Origin: Methanosarcinales archaeon
Lineage (GTDB): Archaea; Halobacteriota; Methanosarcinia; Methanosarcinales; Methanocomedenaceae
Assembly (NCBI GenBank): GCA_021108405.1
Contig: JAIOQW010000182.1
Span: 1-51,315, forward strand
Length of the DNA stretch: 51,315 bases
Direction of reading: 5' to 3'
Part shown: positions 6,255 through 34,821 of the stretch, piece by piece
Layout of the letters: each line of letters opens with the position of its first letter
How positions within the stretch are numbered: the stretch's first letter is position 1
Program-made: the position numbers and the translations under genes
Notes under the pieces: generated by a model
Told to the model about the DNA's origin: nothing
What the model saw: the letters and a program-made list of their open reading frames with translations, nothing else
Databases searched by the model: none

Positions 6255-6316
6255 GAACAAAATCCTCGCTAACGCTCGGATTTTCTTGAGTATATCAAGT
6301 TATACTTGATATACTA
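6255..6316 (+). repeat. R1 modular palindromic element
   Basis: A 62-base two-hairpin copy. It begins GAACAAAATCC, closes with GGATTTTCTTGAG, and ends with a near-perfect palindrome around AAGTTATACTTGATATACTA. The GAAC end faces the 5' end of the deaminase gene. Confidence 0.85.
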
Positions 6317-6348
6317 TTAAAAGATCACTCTATCCTTAAACATATTTC

Positions 6349-6394
6349 GTATCCATTTCAAAAAATAGGGTAATAAAATTTGTATGAATCATTG
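6349..6394 (-). repeat. R2 repeat, copy C
   Basis: Inverted copy of the R2 element. On the minus strand it reads CAATGATTCATACAAATTTT onward and differs from copy A (1324-1367) at about three positions. It lies just downstream of the methyltransferase stop codon. Confidence 0.75.
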
Positions 6395-20643: not shown

Positions 20644-20784
20644 GAACAAAATCCTCCCTTCGGTCGGATTTTCTTGACCGACATTCCAGAGGAATGGAGG
20701 ATTAAAAAATTTGTAGAATCTTCTAATCTTCGGCTCTTATAGAGCCTCAGGCAAGAAAATCCGAGCGTTAACGAGGATTTTGTT
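20644..20784. repeat. R1 element, tail-to-tail double copy
   Basis: It begins GAACAAAATCC on the plus strand and ends GAGGATTTTGTT, the inverted version, so two R1 copies face each other with outer ends outward. Inner hairpins include CATTCC/GGAATG (as at 5050-5156) and GGCTC/GAGCC (as at 1-105). The right end reaches into the cupin gene and supplies its last codons and stop. Confidence 0.85.
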
Positions 20785-21133
20785 TTTTCACAACAGTAAG
20801 AATCATCTTAAAAGGTTTTTGTGCTTCCAGCGAGTGAGGAACATCTGCTGGCATCACCACTACCTCACCCGTTTGGGCCGTGACATCCTTATCACCAATG
20901 TTTATATTCGCCTCTCCGTCCAGAATAAATACCATAGCGTCCCCTGGCGCAGAATGAGTACTCAACCCTTCACCTACATCAAATGCAAATAATGTTATAC
21001 TTACACATTTATTCTGTGCCAGCGTACGGCTGACAACTCTTCCTTCTTCATAATCAACCAGTTTCGCGAGTATGTGTGGTTCACTAAACGTGATGTTCTT
21101 TATTAGAGTAGTATTGCTCATTTTCTTTTCCAT
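20768..21133 (-). CDS. Small cupin-domain protein
   Basis: A 121-residue single-domain cupin. The first cupin motif is diverged ([24 protein letters not shown]) and the second reads [16 protein letters not shown]. Metal ligands would be His in THS, Glu or Asp in GDAM, and His in PHS. Function unknown; such proteins bind small ligands or act as enzymes. A strong Shine-Dalgarno (AGGAGG) lies 10 bases before the ATG. The start overlaps the 3' end of the ABC ATPase fragment by 50 bases, so it is the last gene of that operon. The final codons (KKQNPR and the TAA stop at 20768) come from an R1 element, so the original C-terminus was replaced or trimmed. Confidence 0.85.
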
Positions 21134-21560
21134 TTAATAGTACCTCCTTAATATCCCCATCCCTGGAAAGCATATAAATCTTCCGAGCGATCCTGTTGAG
21201 CTCATTCGGGTTATGCGATACATACATGACAGTAAGTGTCCTTTTATTCAGCATATCACGAATAAGACCGATCATATCCTCTTTTAAAAGAGGATCCAGA
21301 GCACTGAACGGTTCATCCATAAGCAGGATATCAGGATCTATAGCAAAGGCCCTACCTATTGATACTCGCTGGGACATCCCCCCGCTCAACTGATGAGGAT
21401 AACAATTTTCAAAACCCATAAGACCCAGATTTTCTACAAACTTTTTGCCTATCTTTTTAGCTTCATGGTCTCCGGTCCCACGTACTCTTAAACCAAAACA
21501 GATATTCTCAAGCACTGTCTTCCATGGAATCAAACGCGGCTCCTGGAAGATATATCTCAT
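21084..21560 (-). pseudogene. ABC transporter ATPase, N-terminus deleted (SsuB/TauB type)
   Basis: A 158-residue remainder of an ABC ATPase. It keeps the Q-loop ([11 protein letters not shown]), the signature [14 protein letters not shown], Walker B ([12 protein letters not shown]) and the H-loop (VSHNPNE). The first roughly 80 residues, including Walker A, are missing, so it cannot bind ATP normally. The sequence begins exactly where the upstream permease gene ends, at a stretch (21541-21558) that fits both genes, indicating a deletion between similar short sequences. The closest relatives are importers for nitrate, sulfonate or taurine. It may still be translated but should be inactive. Confidence 0.85.
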
Positions 21561-22065
21561 GCAAGAGCATTACAAAACTTGTTTGATATACTTCTCCCAT
21601 CTCCAGAATATTCGATTCCACAGCCTGTACACCCTCAATTGTATTGATGTACATGATCGGCATGATCAATAGTGATGTAGCAGCGATGATCTGGGTATTC
21701 CCAATACCAAACCAGATCATGCACACTGTCACAAGAATAACGGGTGGCACACTCATTAAAGCCCAGCGTATTGGCTCAAGCAGACGTTTTATATCTACCT
21801 TTATCCCGGCCGCAATTCCAAAAATAATACCAACCAGACTTCCAAGTACCAGGCTCAGGCTGAATCTCTCAAGTGTGATCACTAAATTCTTCCAAAAATC
21901 CATGGTCCGGACCATTTCATTAAGAGCAAAAAATGTGTCATAAGGCGAAGCAATGATAAATTCAGATGAAATAATAGATAGTATTTGCCAGAGAAAGAGG
22001 AATAGACCTATTCCAAGAAGGCTATAACCAATTTCCCTTATCAGACAAATAATATAACCAATCAT
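21508..22065 (-). pseudogene. ABC transporter permease, C-terminus deleted (SsuC/TauC type)
   Basis: It keeps about 174 residues of a binding-protein-dependent permease of about 250. The N-terminal membrane segments (LLGIGLFLFLWQILSII), the SPYDTFFAL region, LGSLVGIIFGIAAG and PVILVTVCMIWFGIG are intact. It reaches LHEIYLPG, where the conserved EAA loop should continue, then runs into ATPase-derived DNA in another frame and stops at 21508. The last membrane helices are missing. The start codon overlaps the end of the binding-protein gene by 4 bases, the usual coupling in such operons. Confidence 0.85.
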
Positions 22066-23093
22066 TCTTCATATTGATAGTAGAATTCTTCATCCGGAAG
22101 CTTACCTCCGATCGAATCAGGTTCGAGATCCATGAAACATGAATACATAAACTCAAGTTCTTTTTTTGAATCTCTCGCAGGTACTGATTCGAAAATAGTA
22201 TAGTTCAGTGCTTCTTCAAAGGCAGCGGCATCCACACCTTCCACATATTTGGCTGCAAGAATTGCAGCTTCGTGTGGGTTTTGGGTTGACCATTTAACAC
22301 CCTCATCATACGCTTTACAGAAAGCCTCTATTGCTATGGGATTCTCCAGTATACCGGGAAGTGCTACAACACCTGCATTCGGAAGTCTTGGATCAGTCCC
22401 TGTTACGCTACCCCATTCCTCTTGTATGTCGATGACTCTTTCAACTGTTATTCCATTCTCTTGCGCTTTTCTAATGGTTTGTGAAGCCCCCGGTTCAAGT
22501 GTAATAGCATATTGAGCAGTACCGGCAAGCAGGTTGAGAGTGATATCAAGAGAAGATGAAACATACTGTATATCAAGATCTTTAAATGGATCTATTCCTT
22601 GTTGCTGGCAGATATATCGAAATACCAGATCCGGCTGGTCCCCTTTAAACGGCACATAGACTTCCTGAGCTGTAAGGTCATGAAGCGATTGAACAGAAGT
22701 ATTGCTGCTGATAACATAGAACACTCCCCATACAGAAATTTCAAGCAGTTTAAGATCTGTTCCTTTATTGTAGAATATACTGGCAACATTGCTCGGAACC
22801 GACACAAAATGTACATCATCCTGTGTCATCATTATTCTTAGTTGATCCGGGTTATTCCAGATAACCAGTTAAACATCATTAGCCACTTCATCAAGCATGT
22901 TATTTTCAACGATATAAGCCATTGGCATGACAAGTGGAGAAAATGGGCTGGAGATCACGATCTTATCTATTTTATCTGCATTTTCTACTGGCTCTTCCAC
23001 ATCTTTGGAAGTACAGCCACATCCCGCGATCACTAATATCAAGATTAGTAAAAAACAGCTTCGATTTAACCATCTTTTTGTTTTATATGTCAT
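22062..23093 (-). pseudogene. ABC transporter substrate-binding lipoprotein with an in-frame stop
   Basis: One continuous frame of 343 codons is interrupted by a single TAA at 22869-22871. The N-terminal part (residues 1-74) has a basic start, hydrophobic segment and lipobox (LILVIAGCGC), then KIVISSPFSPLVMPMAYIVE. After the stop, the frame continues with LVIWNNPDQLRIMMTQDDVH and a normal NMT1/SsuA-type binding domain (VPSNVASIFYNKG, GDQPDLVFRYICQQQGID). No frameshift is needed, so a nonsense mutation is the simplest reading. The distal part could restart at ATG 22832 without its export signal. It is the first gene of the operon, behind an operator shared with two other genes. Confidence 0.85.
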
Positions 23094-23141: not shown

Positions 23142-23197
23142 TTAGGGTTATAAATACTATACCCTAATAATATTCGGTTTGATATAGAAAACCTAAC
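23142..23197 (-). promoter_or_regulatory. Shared operator, copy 1 (ABC-transporter operon)
   Basis: A 26-base imperfect palindrome (23142-23167) has arms TTAGGGT and ACCCTAA around a 12-base AT-rich core. On the minus strand the core contains TATTTATAA, a good archaeal TATA box, about 55 bases from the binding-protein ATG. A third half-site, ACCTAAC, lies at 23191-23197. The same three-part arrangement precedes the genes at 23584 and 27684. A repressor bound here would block TBP access. Confidence 0.7.
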
Positions 23198-23262
23198 GGT
23201 ATAAAGCGTAAGCCATCATCAGAAAATAGAAAAAAGAATATTTGTAGACCTATGGTTTAAGA

Positions 23263-23287
23263 AAATGCTCACTTTGTTCGCATTTAC
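23263..23287. repeat. Single R1 hairpin module
   Basis: GAAAATGCTCACTTTGTTCG followed by CATTT is the third R1 module. It lies 14 bases from a full R1 copy (23301-23361), so it may be the outer part of a longer element. Confidence 0.6.
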
Positions 23288-23300
23288 CTGGGATTTATTT

Positions 23301-23361
23301 TAGTATATAATCTGTAAGATAATATACTCAAAAAAATTCGACCGAAGGGAGGATTTTGTTC
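23301..23361 (-). repeat. R1 modular palindromic element (61 bp)
   Basis: This copy is nearly identical to those flanking the SulP gene, with about three changes. It begins TAGTATATAATCTGTAAGAT and ends GGATTTTGTTC. The GTTC end lies 5 bases from the stop codon of the 72-residue protein gene. Confidence 0.85.
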
Positions 23362-23365
23362 TTAG

Positions 23366-23584
23366 TTATGATATTGATGCCTTAAGTAACTTATTCGGAT
23401 TATTCACGTATACCATATAATTCTTTACTGATAATAATACGATCTTTCCTTTAATTCCAATTACATTTCCCATATATTCTTTATTGTTCTTTGTCCAAAG
23501 GATTTTTAACCTGTCTCCAATCATTATTTTATTGCCATTTTTATCTTTCATAGAAATCTCCACTATTTTTTTATATATTTTCAC
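23366..23584 (-). CDS. Small SH3-like basic protein, function unknown
   Basis: A 72-residue protein. The central part (DKNGNKIMIGDRLKILWTKN, then YMGNVIGIKGKIVLLSV) has the alternating strand-turn pattern and GD-x-hydrophobic start of small SH3/KOW-like beta-barrels, which often bind nucleic acid or proteins. No family can be named. Evidence that it is real: no stop codons, a promoter with the shared operator 37 bases upstream, and ordinary composition. ATG 23584 or an internal ATG after 11 codons could start it. Its 3' end abuts an R1 repeat. The shared operator suggests joint control with the ABC transporter and the beta-propeller protein. Confidence 0.65.
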   Translation of the reverse strand: MKIYKKIVEISMKDKNGNKIMIGDRLKILWTKNNKEYMGNVIGIKGKIVLLSVKNYMVYVNNPNKLLKASIS

Positions 23585-23620
23585 AATTTTACCTCTAATA
23601 AGGTATATGCTTATAGATAA

Positions 23621-23680
23621 TTAGGTTAATAAATATCATACCCTAATTAATTTAGAATGAAACAGAATGAACTAACATAT
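23621..23680 (-). promoter_or_regulatory. Shared operator, copy 2 (72-residue protein gene)
   Basis: A 26-base element (23621-23646) with arms TTAGGTT and ACCCTAA around an AT-rich core; the minus strand reads TATTTATTAA as a likely TATA box. The distal half-site CTAACATAT starts at 23672, 25 bases past the palindrome. The intervening block ATTTAGAAT is shared with copy 3. Confidence 0.7.
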
Positions 23681-23787
23681 TTTAAAGTGAATTAATAATA
23701 ATTCCAGAGTTAATATGAACACGATCCGTAGTATTGAATCAGCGTTTACTCCTTTTGTTTTTTCTCCACCTCTTGATACCTTGTATA

Positions 23788-23848
23788 GAACAAAATCCTC
23801 CCTCCGGTCGGATTTTCTTGAGTACATCAAGTTATACTTGATATACTA
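23788..23848 (+). repeat. R1 modular palindromic element (61 bp)
   Basis: It starts GAACAAAATCC, has the GGATTTTCTTGAG closing arm, and ends with the AAGTTATACTTGATATACTA palindrome. Outer modules match the copy at 6255-6316. It lies in a 347-base gap (23585-23931); apart from this and the operator I see only short, unsupported frames there. Confidence 0.85.
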
Positions 23849-23931
23849 TAAAAAGTATCAATTCCTTAGCTGTCCTGTCGCAGTTAATATCGACATCTAA
23901 ATCATTATTAGACTTAAGGAATAATACTTAC

Positions 23932-24210
23932 TTAATCCTTTCCTTTCCACATAGCATAAGCAATTATCAGAAGCATAAGAAAAGCAAACACCGTTTTCAC
24001 TTCCTGCGACACAAGATCGCTTACACTTCCTGCGATTGACGTCGTAGCAATTCCCATTTCAAGATAAATAAAGTCAAGGAGAAGCCCGGCAACTCCGAAA
24101 CCTAAGAACAGATACGGGGCAGTGTCTAAAAAGATATTCCATATATCAAGAGCAATTCCCGTGGCAAGATCAGTGAAAGCATCCATCGAGGCCATGATTA
24201 CGAATTGCAC
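23932..24210 (-). pseudogene. Internally shortened DUF318-like permease fragment
   Basis: A 92-residue frame that opens like the N-terminus of the large DUF318/SO_0444-type permeases (LDIWNIFLDTAPYLFLGFGVAGLL) but then jumps to a C-terminal-looking tail with one hydrophobic segment (VFAFLMLLIIAYAMW). Intact members are over 300 residues, so most membrane segments are missing and an internal deletion is likely. It overlaps the end of the ArsR gene by 13 bases, the usual arrangement for a metal- or arsenic-responsive efflux operon. A genuine small membrane protein cannot be excluded. True start is probably the ATG of MASMDAF or MDAF. Confidence 0.5.
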
Positions 24211-24548
24211 TCCATCACATGCTTCCGGCAGAGGTCTATTATTGCCCAGACATGGTCGTCCGCAATATAGTATACAGCAAATTTTCCATCTTTTCTGACC
24301 CGTACAAGGTCAAGCTGCCGCAGAACTCGTAAACTGTGTGAGATTGCAGATTGTGTCACGTCAAGCATATAATCGAGTTCGCAAACGCACATCTCCTTTT
24401 TGGATAGCAAAAAAAGAATTTTAAGTCGTGTTTCAGAATGAATCGCCTGGAATATGGCAGATATCCTGGTTATCACCATCTCATCTGGGATGTCCTGAAT
24501 AATCTTATTTAGGAGTGGATCGTCAATACGCGGACAGTGTTTGATCAT
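24198..24548 (-). CDS. ArsR/SmtB-family metal-responsive repressor
   Basis: A 116-residue winged-helix regulator. The core (AIHSETRLKILFLLSKKEMCVCELDYML, then VTQSAISHSLRVLRQLDLVR and the wing VRKDGKFAVYYI) is typical of ArsR/CadC. CVCEL in helix 3 is the classic cysteine site for As(III), Sb(III), Cd(II) or Pb(II). C-terminal CRKHVMEC may supply further ligands. A perfect 16-base palindrome lies 6 bases upstream of the ATG, so it very likely represses itself and the overlapping permease gene. Confidence 0.9.
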   Translation of the reverse strand: MIKHCPRIDDPLLNKIIQDIPDEMVITRISAIFQAIHSETRLKILFLLSKKEMCVCELDYMLDVTQSAISHSLRVLRQLDLVRVRKDGKFAVYYIADDHVWAIIDLCRKHVMECNS

Positions 24549-24554
24549 GAATAC

Positions 24555-24570
24555 ATGAACATATGTTCAT
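24555..24570. promoter_or_regulatory. ArsR-type operator palindrome
   Basis: ATGAACATATGTTCAT is a perfect 16-base palindrome of the kind bound by ArsR/SmtB repressors (TGAACA-n2-TGTTCA). It lies directly upstream of the ArsR ATG, overlapping the likely transcription start; an AT-rich TATA-like stretch (TATAAATG on the minus strand) is next to it. Confidence 0.75.
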
Positions 24571-24686
24571 ACATTTATACTTTATGCCTGAGTCAAAACA
24601 TATATATAAAAAAAAAGAAGCGAAAACTGGCACTATCCTAAAAACCAGTTATTTCAATAGAGGATTATTTAAATCGATAATTACAT

Positions 24687-24817
24687 AGACACGGATTAAC
24701 ACAGATTTACACGGATTTAAGGTTGTTGTGGTCGATATCATAAGATTCCATTAAGTTTGTGATAGAAGGTATTTGATCAAAATCAAATCGGTGTAAATCT
24801 GTGTAAATCCGTGTCTG
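24687..24817. repeat. Inverted repeat with 32-base arms
   Basis: The arms 24687-24718 (AGACACGGATTAACACAGAT onward) and 24786-24817 are reverse complements with two mismatches, 67 bases apart. Within each arm, short units of the form ACACGGATT/ACACAGATTT repeat about three times. The gap between the ArsR gene and the next gene (24549-24927) holds only this and the operator. Confidence 0.8.
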
Positions 24818-24927
24818 AAAAATAACTGGAAAATGGTACAGTGCCGCGAAAACTTATATATATAGTATTAAAAAAATATATTTGTAAATCAAGCTAGGAT
24901 AAGCCACTTAATTTGAGGGACCAAGAA

Positions 24928-25203
24928 ATGTCTAATGAAAAAAATAGTGTTATACAATCTGAAGAAGTAATGGAAATTTCTGCACGACAGGCTGTTTTAG
25001 CTGCAGTAAAATTCTACCATGAAGTTAGTAGCTCAGAAAAAAAGGGAAGTTTGGAGGAAGTTGAAAATAAAGGAGATGGATATTGGTATATAACATTAGG
25101 CTTCACAACTAATTATTTAATCCCCAGTCAAAAGGAATACAGGGTTTTTAAGGTGAATGCAGTGAATGAAAATGTTGAATCAATGAAATTAAGAGAGAGT
25201 TAA
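24928..25203 (+). CDS. Small PepSY-like hypothetical protein
   Basis: A 91-residue acidic protein. The pattern ISARQAVLAAVKFYHEV (helix), GSLEEVENKGDGYWYITLGF (strands) and YRVFKVNAVNENVESMKLRE (strand ending in a V-x-A-x-N-G-E-like turn) resembles single PepSY-type domains, which are often protease inhibitors or cell-surface modules. It has no signal peptide. The ATG at 24928 is preceded by GAGGG at 9 bases; a TTG five codons earlier is less likely. It is convergent with the beta-propeller gene. Function not known. Confidence 0.6.
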   Translation: MSNEKNSVIQSEEVMEISARQAVLAAVKFYHEVSSSEKKGSLEEVENKGDGYWYITLGFTTNYLIPSQKEYRVFKVNAVNENVESMKLRES

Positions 25204-25245
25204 TATTTTCCGTATCTTCTTTTGTGAAGTGGGGGTATTATCCCC

Positions 25246-27684
25246 CTAAGAATCACTCTCTGCAACGAAAATGATCGTTCCATCGTATTTTCCTCCTGCC
25301 CAGTCGGGTACTTCAAGGTTTGCCACAACTTCATACTCATACTGGAAGTCTGAAGTATCTGACGGCACAACTGCGAAGAAACCGCTAACACCAAGATCGT
25401 TCAACTTCAATGATTCGTTATAAAAACCATCGCTATCATCCAGTAGCATAGCAGAGACCTTAGCAGATCCTGCTCCTGTATTCACAACTGTCATAACCTG
25501 GTTGCCAGAGGTCATTCCGGATCCAACCTTTCCGAAATCAACATTTGATGTTGGAACTGTCATTGAGATTGCAGGAATTACTTCTGCTGTTAGTTCTGTT
25601 GTGGTCTGCAGGTTTGATTCGGACGTGGTAACCTCATACACCCCAACCGACCAGCCGTGACCATCTCCAATAACCACATGCTTTTTATTGTCTGTTTCGA
25701 AAGGCACTATGTCAAGATTAAGACCTGCAATGATACCCCCATCATCAATATCTGTCATATCAACATGACCGACAAATTCACCTGTCTTGGTATACACATT
25801 AGCTCCGTGGCCACCATGATAGGAAACATAGACAAACCCGGTGTCATGATCAACAGCTACATCTAGAGGCATAAGTATTGCTTCTTTAAAGCTGTCATCA
25901 TGTGCCATGACATGAGCTAAAGATTCGGAGTATTGTGTATAGCCCTCCGGGAGTGGTGGTGCCTCCACCAATTCACCAAGCCAGCTTCCGTCATCCGGAT
26001 CAAGCATGACAACACGCCAGTAATTCTCATCCACTACATAAAGCACATCGCCGTCCGGATGAAGAGCTATGCCAAAGGGTATTGAAAATTCATTCTGTCC
26101 CGGCGGATCTGCTGAAAGATCACGTGCAGGCTCAGAAGCAATAAATGTCCCTGTGCTCCAGATCTCGGAAAATTTCCACTCAGGGTCAAACTCATACTCA
26201 AATTTGGTCACCAGACCGCTACCGCCATCCAGCATACCTGTTATTTTGCTTTCGCTAACATAGAGGTAGTGTTTTCCGTCTTCTGTGCTGGTATCAATGC
26301 CTGTTGGAATTTGAAGACTTCGTGTACCGTCTGTGATCGTTTCACCGCTTGCAGGGTCGATTGTCAGCGAAGTATTGTAAGTAACAAGGTTGTAGAGTTC
26401 ATTACCATCCATATCCAGTGCATAGACTCCAGATGACACCATATCCCAGTTTGGCATCTCAAAGCCTAACTGGCTGTACCAGATATGACCTTCGTGATCA
26501 AGTTTGATGAATGATCCCCCGCTGTTGTCCAGATCAACTAGCTCCTGCAGTTGTGTCCCATCGATATTTGCCGTTAAAATAGAAACAGGAGAACCACAAA
26601 AGGAAAGGGGAAGCATAAACACCTTATTACTGGCATCGTGGTCTATTCCCCAGATACTGAGCAGCTCAATCTGTTCAGGGAATGATAATTTCTGTGCGCC
26701 GGTAGAATCATATATAATAACCTGACCCGAATCCGAATACATCATAGATTTTGCTGTCACATAGATGTTTGAGTTTGCATCCACATCGATTCCTGTCACC
26801 ATCATACCCATACCCTGAAGAGAACTGGTATCAACTATCTGTGCATATACAGGCGGCTCACTGAGTGAAGAGATATTATATTTGATCACTCCATTAATAC
26901 CACCGGTAGAACTGCTTACGCTAACATATATGTCAGTTCCCACAGTATCCACATCCCCTGGTATGCAATTTGCAGGAAGTTCCAGTTCAGTATCCAATAA
27001 CGCCATATTTTCTGCATCATAGATCAGGATCATTTTGTCACCCATCGGATTTGTCTCAGAAACGAATAGATACGTATCTGTCACATCCAGTCCCCCGGGT
27101 ACTGTGAATGAAGATACATCTGCCTCTGCCTGCCAAATCCCGACAGGATCGTACTTTATTATCCTGTATGGGAGCGACATGTTGTGATGATTGGGTCCGC
27201 ATATAATGTAAATATTACCCTGGGTATCTACTGCCATATTCTGCGGTCCGATCTCGGTTTCATCTGCAGGTACTGCAAGAAACGGATCAACCTCCGTACC
27301 ATACTCACTCACATCCCAGACCGTAACAATTTCCGGATTGGCTGCCAGATACAGATTTTCACCATCAGTAGTGAGGCCTCCCGGCATCTCGATCTCGCCT
27401 GTAAGCGTATTACCCTGACTGCCAAAACGGGCGATGTAAGTGCCATTCATATCGAATAGACTCACGCGACTTGTACCTGCGTCACTGACGATGATCATGT
27501 TGTTTAACACTGTTACATCACCGGGCATCAGGAGCTGTCCTTCACCCAGAGCATCAGGAACCAGTTTATTTTCAAACTCAACTTCAATTGAGTGCAACTG
27601 TGTATTTGCACCTGCAATTCCAATGCAGGTGAGCATTGCTATAAGTAAAACCATACTTGCGGTTAGATATCCTTTCTTATCCAT
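25246..27684 (-). CDS. Secreted NHL-type beta-propeller protein
   Basis: An 812-residue exported protein. The signal peptide spans residues 1-26 (MVLLIAMLTCIGIAGANT). A long run of NHL/6-bladed propeller repeats follows (for example MPGDVTVLNNMIIVSDAG, MPGGLTTDGENLYLAANP, PFGIALHPDGDVLYVVDENYWRVVML, MPLDVAVDHDTGFVYVSYHGGHG), probably enough for two propellers. The last roughly 110 residues form an Ig-like beta domain (SNVDFGKVGSG, VVNTGAGSAKVSAML) that may attach to the cell surface. No PGF-CTERM tail is present. AAGGAGA lies 8 bases before the ATG. The promoter region carries the operator shared with the ABC-transporter operon and the 72-residue gene. Ligand unknown. Confidence 0.85.
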   Translation of the reverse strand: MDKKGYLTASMVLLIAMLTCIGIAGANTQLHSIEVEFENKLVPDALGEGQLLMPGDVTVLNNMIIVSDAGTSRVSLFDMNGTYIARFGSQGNTLTGEIEMPGGLTTDGENLYLAANPEIVTVWDVSEYGTEVDPFLAVPADETEIGPQNMAVDTQGNIYIICGPNHHNMSLPYRIIKYDPVGIWQAEADVSSFTVPGGLDVTDTYLFVSETNPMGDKMILIYDAENMALLDTELELPANCIPGDVDTVGTDIYVSVSSSTGGINGVIKYNISSLSEPPVYAQIVDTSSLQGMGMMVTGIDVDANSNIYVTAKSMMYSDSGQVIIYDSTGAQKLSFPEQIELLSIWGIDHDASNKVFMLPLSFCGSPVSILTANIDGTQLQELVDLDNSGGSFIKLDHEGHIWYSQLGFEMPNWDMVSSGVYALDMDGNELYNLVTYNTSLTIDPASGETITDGTRSLQIPTGIDTSTEDGKHYLYVSESKITGMLDGGSGLVTKFEYEFDPEWKFSEIWSTGTFIASEPARDLSADPPGQNEFSIPFGIALHPDGDVLYVVDENYWRVVMLDPDDGSWLGELVEAPPLPEGYTQYSESLAHVMAHDDSFKEAILMPLDVAVDHDTGFVYVSYHGGHGANVYTKTGEFVGHVDMTDIDDGGIIAGLNLDIVPFETDNKKHVVIGDGHGWSVGVYEVTTSESNLQTTTELTAEVIPAISMTVPTSNVDFGKVGSGMTSGNQVMTVVNTGAGSAKVSAMLLDDSDGFYNESLKLNDLGVSGFFAVVPSDTSDFQYEYEVVANLEVPDWAGGKYDGTIIFVAESDS

Positions 27685-27758
27685 ATTATGTCTCCTTGTT
27701 ATAATAAAAATACGGGAGTGGTTAAATTCCCTCTTTTTAGGTATGAATATATGGTTGA

Positions 27759-27817
27759 TTAGGTTGAGAAATAATATGCCCTAACAAATTTAGAATCCTG
27801 AAGAATTACCTAACATA
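27759..27817 (-). promoter_or_regulatory. Shared operator, copy 3 (beta-propeller gene)
   Basis: A 26-base element (27759-27784) with arms TTAGGTT and GCCCTAA around an AT-rich core, 75 bases before the ATG. The distal half-site CCTAACATAT starts at 27809, 24 bases past the palindrome, and is preceded by ATTTAGAAT as in copy 2. Confidence 0.7.
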
Positions 27818-27850: not shown

Positions 27851-27911
27851 TAGTATATGATCTGTAAGATAATATACTCAAGAAAATCCGACCGAAGGGA
27901 GGATTTTGTTC
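27851..27911 (-). repeat. R1 element, left flank of the SulP gene (61 bp)
   Basis: It starts TAGTATATGATCTGTAAGAT and ends GGATTTTGTTC. It is the reverse complement of 29673-29733 with a single mismatch in 61 bases. The GTTC end faces the SulP gene. Confidence 0.9.
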
Positions 27912-27970
27912 CCATTTCCCTGGCAAAAACACTTCAGCTAACAAAGCCATTATCGAAGGAGATATGTACC

Positions 27971-34341: not shown

Positions 34342-34821
34342 ATGAAAAAGCGGATATATCATCGTTTTCCACTTGATAATGTGGAATTCACACAAAAATA
34401 TCATTTCTGGGATGATCTCCCATATATTGTAAAAACATTTGCTGGCATGAATAATAAATCAGGGTCTTTTAAGATAAATAAATCAAAGAACCAGGCATTG
34501 AAAGCTAAAAGAAATATGGCAGTAGATATAGCCGAATCAAATGTAGACTTCAAGCAATTGACAACAAACAACCTGAGTAGTATTCTAAAAGATATAGAAT
34601 CCAATGGCATCCTGGATTTTAAAATACGTTTATTGTATTCTTATCTTGGAAATAATCTTAATAGAATTCCTACTAAAGGCGATACATTCCTGGTAAGAAG
34701 TGATCTGAACGGAGGTATCTTAACCTTACAAGTACACATGATAGATGGTCCTGGTCTCACTACATGTGATGAGATCGCCGATACTATCGTAGATGAGATT
34801 AGTAAGGGACATCCGGATTGA
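34342..34821 (+). CDS. Conserved-looking hypothetical protein
   Basis: A 159-residue protein I do not recognise. The N-terminal half is basic and rich in Lys and Asn (KRIYHRFPLDNVEFTQKYHF). The C-terminal half looks folded (FKIRLLYSYLGNNLNRIPTK, then GDTFLVRSDLNGGILTLQVH) and ends in a short helix (CDEIADTIVDEISKGH). No signal peptide or membrane segment. Start: ATG 34342, with a TTG two codons earlier as the alternative. The upstream gap holds an AT-rich promoter-like stretch (TATATAAATATAAT, about 34295-34308) and CCCTAATTAA, a half-site like that in the shared operator. It is followed by the ATP synthase operon, which has its own promoter-like region (34822-34935). Confidence 0.6.
   Translation: MKKRIYHRFPLDNVEFTQKYHFWDDLPYIVKTFAGMNNKSGSFKINKSKNQALKAKRNMAVDIAESNVDFKQLTTNNLSSILKDIESNGILDFKIRLLYSYLGNNLNRIPTKGDTFLVRSDLNGGILTLQVHMIDGPGLTTCDEIADTIVDEISKGHPD

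Follow-up and report, generated by a model that had tools for sequence, protein, structure and literature searches.

An operator of four TTAGG/CCTAA half-sites around the TATA box and a probable DtxR-type iron-starvation regulon in a Methanosarcinales archaeon

The window considered here is a whole 51,315-nucleotide stretch, contig C8 of the 3.67-Mb draft genome of a methane-oxidising Methanosarcinales archaeon of ANME-2 type, whose closest sampled relative is ANME-2 cluster archaeon HR1, of the same genus (ANME, anaerobic methanotrophic archaea). Three minus-strand promoters of the window carry a common element, and they stand in front of the remnant of an ABC-importer operon, a gene for a 72-aa protein and a gene for an exported beta-propeller protein (Table 1). 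The first-pass annotation, made from the letters of the window alone, had described a three-part operator marking a three-gene regulon, with a 26-bp core over the TATA box and a CTAAC half-site at near-constant spacing further upstream. The core is indeed present in exact form, as TTAGG-N16-CCTAA enclosing a TATA-like sequence, at all three promoters and nowhere else in the window, where the next-best matches have two mismatches and are found in numbers at or below chance. The outer half-site also stands, with a gap of exactly 24 bp in each copy. The counts of parts and of promoters have had to be revised, since the operator has four parts, CTAAC being its outer TTAGG on the other strand, and 16 promoters carry it genome-wide. 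The sequence ATTTAGAAT, noted as shared by copies 2 and 3, is common to both, but it is not a separate element, as it holds a degenerate fourth CCTAA arm.

Table 1. Genes and operator copies in the studied part of the window; half-site layouts are written on the gene strand, outer half-sites as they read on the forward strand.
Feature	Coordinates	Strand	Details
Cupin_2 protein gene	20768..21133	-	Last gene of the remnant operon
ABC permease-ATPase fusion	21084..22065	-	Permease 21508-22065 (profile 1-107 of 184); deletion near 21560; ATPase 21084-21560 (profile 62-136 of 137)
NMT1/SsuA-type substrate-binding protein gene	22062..23093	-	In-frame TAA 22869-22871; open pieces 22869-23093 and 22062-22832; weak Pfam NMT1_2/NMT1 and SsuA matches
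Operator copy 1	23142..23196	-	TTAGG-N14-CCGAA-N5-TTAGG-N16-CCTAA; inner pair 23142-23167, outer half-site CCTAA at 23192; lies over the TATA-like core in the promoter of the decayed ABC operon; profile E 8e-9
72-aa protein gene	23366..23584	-	GTG start 36 nt after the operator
Operator copy 2	23599..23675	-	TTAGT-N14-TCTAA-N5-TTAGG-N16-CCTAA at 23621-23675; inner pair 23621-23646, outer half-site ACTAA at 23671; CCTTA in the +43 register at 23599-23603; before the 72-aa gene; profile E 3e-8
Exported SMP-30/NHL beta-propeller-repeat protein gene	25246..27684	-	Operator copy 3 in front
Operator copy 3	27737..27813	-	TTAGG-N14-TCTAA-N5-TTAGG-N16-CCTAA at 27759-27813; inner pair 27759-27784, outer half-site CCTAA at 27809; fifth half-site CCTAA in the +43 register at 27737-27741; before the beta-propeller gene; profile E 2e-8

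Our evidence is comparative throughout and draws on genomes that are mostly incomplete drafts. In an ungapped alignment of 13 exact sites in the gene direction, conserved letters extended well past the arms described by the first-pass annotation, and the 16 sites of the genome itself give the consensus ACCTAATTTTATTAGGGTATATTATTTATATACCTAAC. Across 82 non-redundant sites from many genomes, which are what remained after 210-bp windows were clustered at 75% identity, the layout is TTAGG(-29)-N14-CCTAA(-10)-N5-TTAGG(0)-N16-CCTAA(+21), with N13 substituting for N14 in 20 of them. CCTAA is present at +21 in all 82 sites and at -10 in 75, the outer TTAGG (at most one mismatch) is present at -29 or -28 in about 72-74, and positions +3, +21, +22, +23 and +24 are 100% conserved. 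TATTT occupies +11 to +15, between the third and fourth arms. Some promoters, window copies 2 and 3 among them, have an extra half-site at +43, and a TTAGG-N4-CCTAA-like site (at most one mismatch) lies downstream of the four-part operator in 16 of the 82 and upstream in none. Copy 2 is retained at the orthologous promoter in HR1 (locus L098). More elaborate arrangements were seen at locus L005, where two operators of divergent promoters, one for an FmdE-like gene and the other for flavodoxin-like/DUF3793 genes, use one common half-site array (6259-6350), and where operator units recur with a 29-bp period upstream of 5173.

Statistical support for the window sites comes from two independent matrices. 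With a matrix trained on ANME-2c-family sites alone, the window gives exactly three matches, at 32.3-40.6 bits, against a maximum of 7.6 in 60 Markov-simulated windows, and with a hold-out matrix built from the other sites of the genome the same three score 38.8-43.3 bits against 8.9 for the next-best place. These are the fair test, given that the 16 whole-genome matches of a 16-site profile (E 1e-10 to 9e-5, then a gap to 0.43) are that profile's own training sites, with E-values that are rough. All 16 copies are intergenic or promoter-proximal and none lies inside an open reading frame of at least 100 aa, so the genome scan did not produce the copies away from promoters that would have spoken against a regulon. 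Shorter definitions perform poorly. CCTAA-N5-TTAGG alone has six exact genomic copies against five in the control, five of the six being at known sites, and was rejected as an operator definition, being informative only in context; with one mismatch allowed, TTAGG-N16-CCTAA (44 matches against 183 in the control) and TTAGG-N4-CCTAA (45 against 181) are dominated by chance. The partial half-site that had been suspected before the gene at 34342 was rejected as an operator, with a score of 0.5 bits and a position on the wrong strand.

The content of the regulon points towards iron. In the genome itself the operator precedes feoA-feoA-feoB-dtxR, a triple FeoA-domain protein, flavodoxin, an exported CbiX/FmdE protein, an FmdE-like protein, DUF3793, DUF454, an exported CobN-like protein followed by DUF2162 and ExbB, a DUF2325 protein, beta-helix and thioredoxin-like exported proteins, and the three window units. 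These target families recur among 148 sites pooled over genomes, and it is FeoA/FeoB operons and flavodoxin that dominate across families. FeoAB and flavodoxin represent iron-uptake and iron-sparing functions. As one would look for in an iron regulon, then, the operator stands before Fe(II) uptake genes, flavodoxin and the regulator's own operon, and the transporter and regulator that the first-pass annotation had expected among the controlled genes are found as feoAB and the dtxR of the feo operon.

Two PF01325 genes are present in the genome, each behind a feoB. Our candidate regulator is the 150-aa product of the last gene in feoA-feoA-feoB-dtxR on contig C57 (C57:10486), which matches both PF01325 (E 1.9e-20) and PF02742 (E 2e-15) above the cut-off. 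Its metal-ligand positions H77, C99, E102 and H103, which we take to be equivalent to DtxR H79, C102, E105 and H106, are invariant in 14 proteins, and the metal-site motif reads DACxxEH. At least 14 genomes, belonging to three families, have the operator at the start of the feo operon, some 2.9-3.7 kb upstream of dtxR. A tree of 65 DtxR proteins places 20 in the feo-linked clade of about 150 aa, and 19 of these come from operator-bearing genomes; the exception is a genome that is 61% complete. Methanoperedens-type and f1-g2 genomes have DtxRs of mostly about 220 aa and essentially no operators. Fur was also considered as the regulator and was rejected, as no PF01475 match was found in the genome.

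The strongest link between operator and DtxR lies in the promoters of the dtxR genes. Of 43 representative dtxR promoters from other lineages, 30 have TTAGG-N4-CCTAA between TATA and the start codon when one mismatch is allowed and 36 when two are; shuffled sequences average about 2 at the latter threshold. The sole exact TTAGG-N4-CCTAA in the 3.67 Mb of the genome itself is in the promoter of the second feo-dtxR operon, and is kept in four relatives with different spacer letters; the site of the paralogue dtxR on contig C153 reads TTAGGAAAACCTAA. This geometry is the IdeR single-dimer consensus TTAGGNNNNCCTAA (PMC8464063). Exact copies were also seen at the dtxR promoters L248, L249, L240 and L254, from Methanolliviera, GoM-Arc1 and a record labelled Methanomicrobiales.

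The operator is not confined to this genus. Matches occur in 29 of 60 sampled relatives, with up to 17 in a genome, and in 50 of the 295 genomes taken from across the phylum, and the lineages that bear it include ANME-1/Methanophagales, ANME-2c, ANME-3 (HMMV), GoM-Arc1 and Methanolliviera.

We consider it very likely that the three window sites are the operator of an iron-starvation regulon under a two-domain, FetR-like repressor of the DtxR family, which would act in an Fe-dependent manner by blocking the TATA box. When Fe(II) is plentiful, metal-loaded dimers, in our proposal of the C57 DtxR, would fill the TTAGG-N14-CCTAA-N5-TTAGG-N16-CCTAA array, with the inner arms straddling the TATA box such that TBP/TFB or RNA polymerase would be excluded and the outer arm pair contributing affinity or cooperativity. 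Iron scarcity would release the repressor, and the cell would then make Feo transporters and flavodoxin along with a number of exported proteins. Occlusion is supported because the best conserved arms flank TATTT on both sides, and the comparative evidence agrees with the placing, in the first-pass annotation, of DtxR-type half-sites over the TATA box. That the C57 protein is the binder, that iron is its metal, that it represses and that its dimers are seated on the array in this way are what we infer from these patterns.

Several observations weigh against this reading. The geometry published for IdeR is not that of the window sites, as CCTAA is not enriched at N4 or N9 from the core TTAGG (+9/+14) in the 82 sites, in line with the earlier remark that the spacing differs from DtxR-type sites. 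On a strict definition the window operator does not pass as an IdeR operator, because no arm pair has N4 spacing, although it very probably works like one despite this. Complete genomes of the Methanosarcinaceae type are mostly without copies, and the few with a match carry only one or two. The g2 genome G009 breaks the association between regulator and operator, since it lacks operators but has, next to feoB, a short DtxR that belongs to the second clade, and the presence of two DtxR paralogues makes either a candidate binder. Finally, the nearest solved relatives of the candidate, by sequence and by profile, are MntR manganese regulators, and the CobN and CbiX-like genes among the targets could point to cobalt. 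These last two points would suit a DtxR/MntR-type manganese or cobalt sensor with iron genes as secondary targets. We think this unlikely, given that FeoA/FeoB operons and flavodoxin are the dominant targets across families and that DACxxEH retains the cysteine of iron-type DtxR. A cysteine at the DtxR metal site is assigned to iron sensing.

The difference in spacing between the two classes of site, together with their positions (four-part sites mostly upstream of and around the TATA box, N4 sites around the transcription start), could also mean that an unlinked transcription factor uses the four-part operator and that DtxR is restricted to TTAGG-N4-CCTAA sites. There seems little chance of this, given that the TTAGG/CCTAA pentamers are common to both classes, that the dtxR operon is itself under a four-part site, that the N4 sites added at 16 of the 82 four-part promoters lie downstream and never upstream, and that operator presence tracks one DtxR clade in the absence of a Fur gene. 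It is similarly unlikely that, through the outer half-sites, the regulator activates transcription when iron is limiting instead of simply repressing it. Archaeal activators act upstream of the TATA box, which is where the half-sites at -29 and -10 lie, but the two best conserved arms flank the box, in the classic position for occlusion, and some promoters carry an added site over the start region. We give almost no credence to, and reject, an origin of the copies as a dispersed repeat or duplicated promoter, since, although the genome does have dispersed repeats near these promoters, spacer letters vary whilst pentamers and spacing are fixed, 82 sites survive the identity clustering, and different families, as well as ANME-1, have the element too.

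Of the importer operon with cupin reported by the first-pass annotation, the Cupin_2 gene is present, but the importer looks decayed because of the in-frame TAA, the permease-ATPase deletion and the missing Walker A, lesions on which the reading as an intact importer was rejected. The permease ends ...IYLPGA and then runs out of frame into an ATPase that lacks its N-terminal part, including Walker A. The substrate-binding protein gene is probably a pseudogene, with no close homologue among 59 relatives; assembly error may be the source of the lesions. The 72-aa protein, previously called SH3-like, has no Pfam or NCBIfam match and shares 95% identity over 62 aa with an HR1 protein behind the same operator. 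The beta-propeller protein was rightly described as secreted, and over its last 122 aa it matches the C-terminal end of operator-controlled exported CbiX/FmdE proteins (ANME-2c, GoM-Arc1 and others) at 68-80% identity, so that it is tied to the regulon independently of its operator. An AlphaFold2 model of this common domain has a mean predicted local distance difference test score (pLDDT) of 33. The best explanation would be that the live targets in the window are the 72-aa protein and the exported propeller protein. The neighbourhood also contains a repeat, AAGAAAATCCGACCGAAGGGAGGATTTTGTTC, with a variable upstream part, in five window copies (23303-23362, 27851-27913, 29675, 23790 and 20646) and nine in other sampled contigs, which is possibly terminator-like or a mobile element.

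Several small proteins were seen behind the operator in other places. A micropeptide of about 27-31 aa, M[DG]C[EK]C[DNS]GxC[AVT]HC[RK]C with an acidic tail, is metallothionein-like in its five cysteines and one histidine and starts about 35 nt after a four-part operator, with a GGAGG ribosome site. There are 11 distinct sequences from two archaeal families (L047 1575, minus strand, or G000:C47 about 6026, minus; L100 about 208, plus; L260-L264, L267, L069, L087 and L090), of which three appear to use ATA starts, and no Pfam or NCBIfam match was found. A 52-aa peptide rich in His, Met and Asp (MDDKELTEHVSGDIKHVHDDIEHVMRDVEEISAHLKNLDEHMHNLMDHMEEM) lies behind an operator and upstream of a CDF cation-efflux-like gene (L007 6106, plus strand; G000:C54 about 14105). 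In ANME-1 and GoM-Arc1 a protein of 42-60 aa ending in LYQGS, LYQAS or LYEGS follows the operator, often near a DUF2325 gene (L209, L216, L219, L228, L268 and L288).

Anaerobic methanotrophs have a high iron need and are genetically intractable, and their iron sensing has been little described. The operator provides a sequence handle that predicts iron-responsive genes across ANME-1, ANME-2, ANME-2c, ANME-3 and GoM-Arc1, singles out candidates for iron uptake among uncharacterised exported proteins, and raises the structural question of how one DtxR protein would read two differently spaced classes of site. A survey of iron and sulfur pathways in 326 genomes of methanogens and alkanotrophs never mentions DtxR (PMC8351635), and in the literature searched we found no paper connecting ANME-2 with DtxR. 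We put forward, tentatively and as somewhat less than an even prospect, that DtxR binds the four-part array in a novel architecture, with several dimers assembled at fixed N14/N5/N16 spacing to hold an archaeal TATA box shut. The array would then differ from the N4 site of the same protein's own promoter, and it would define an iron-starvation stimulon, not described before, of methane- and alkane-oxidising archaea that includes exported chelatase-like and propeller proteins with one common C-terminal domain as well as the cysteine-rich micropeptide.

Regulation of this general kind has precedents. MDR1 of Archaeoglobus fulgidus is a metal-dependent DtxR-family repressor acting at several operators of a promoter, and Leyn and Rodionov (2015) reportedly described archaeal DtxR-family regulons (FetR, MntR and ZntR groups) with palindromic motifs in ten groups and FeoAB targets. 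Archaeal DtxR regulons are already known; what may be a new variant is the composite arrangement of four parts. MntR of Bacillus subtilis and relatives (1on1, 6kta and 3r60) give the best solved-structure sequence match (E 1.6e-35) at the same two-domain length, but the metal-site motif here is DACxxEH and the regulon is one of iron uptake. The actinobacterial DtxR/IdeR regulon (19-bp box TTAGGTTAGSCTAACCTAA, single-dimer TTAGGNNNNCCTAA; PMC8464063) has in common with ours the TTAGG/CCTAA pentamers, the PF01325 and PF02742 family and iron genes, and its single-dimer geometry is also found at the dtxR promoters of the archaeal clade, whereas the window operator is spread at N14/N5/N16 across some 55 bp that enclose an archaeal TATA box and its putative regulator is shorter, at about 150 aa, stopping after the second domain.

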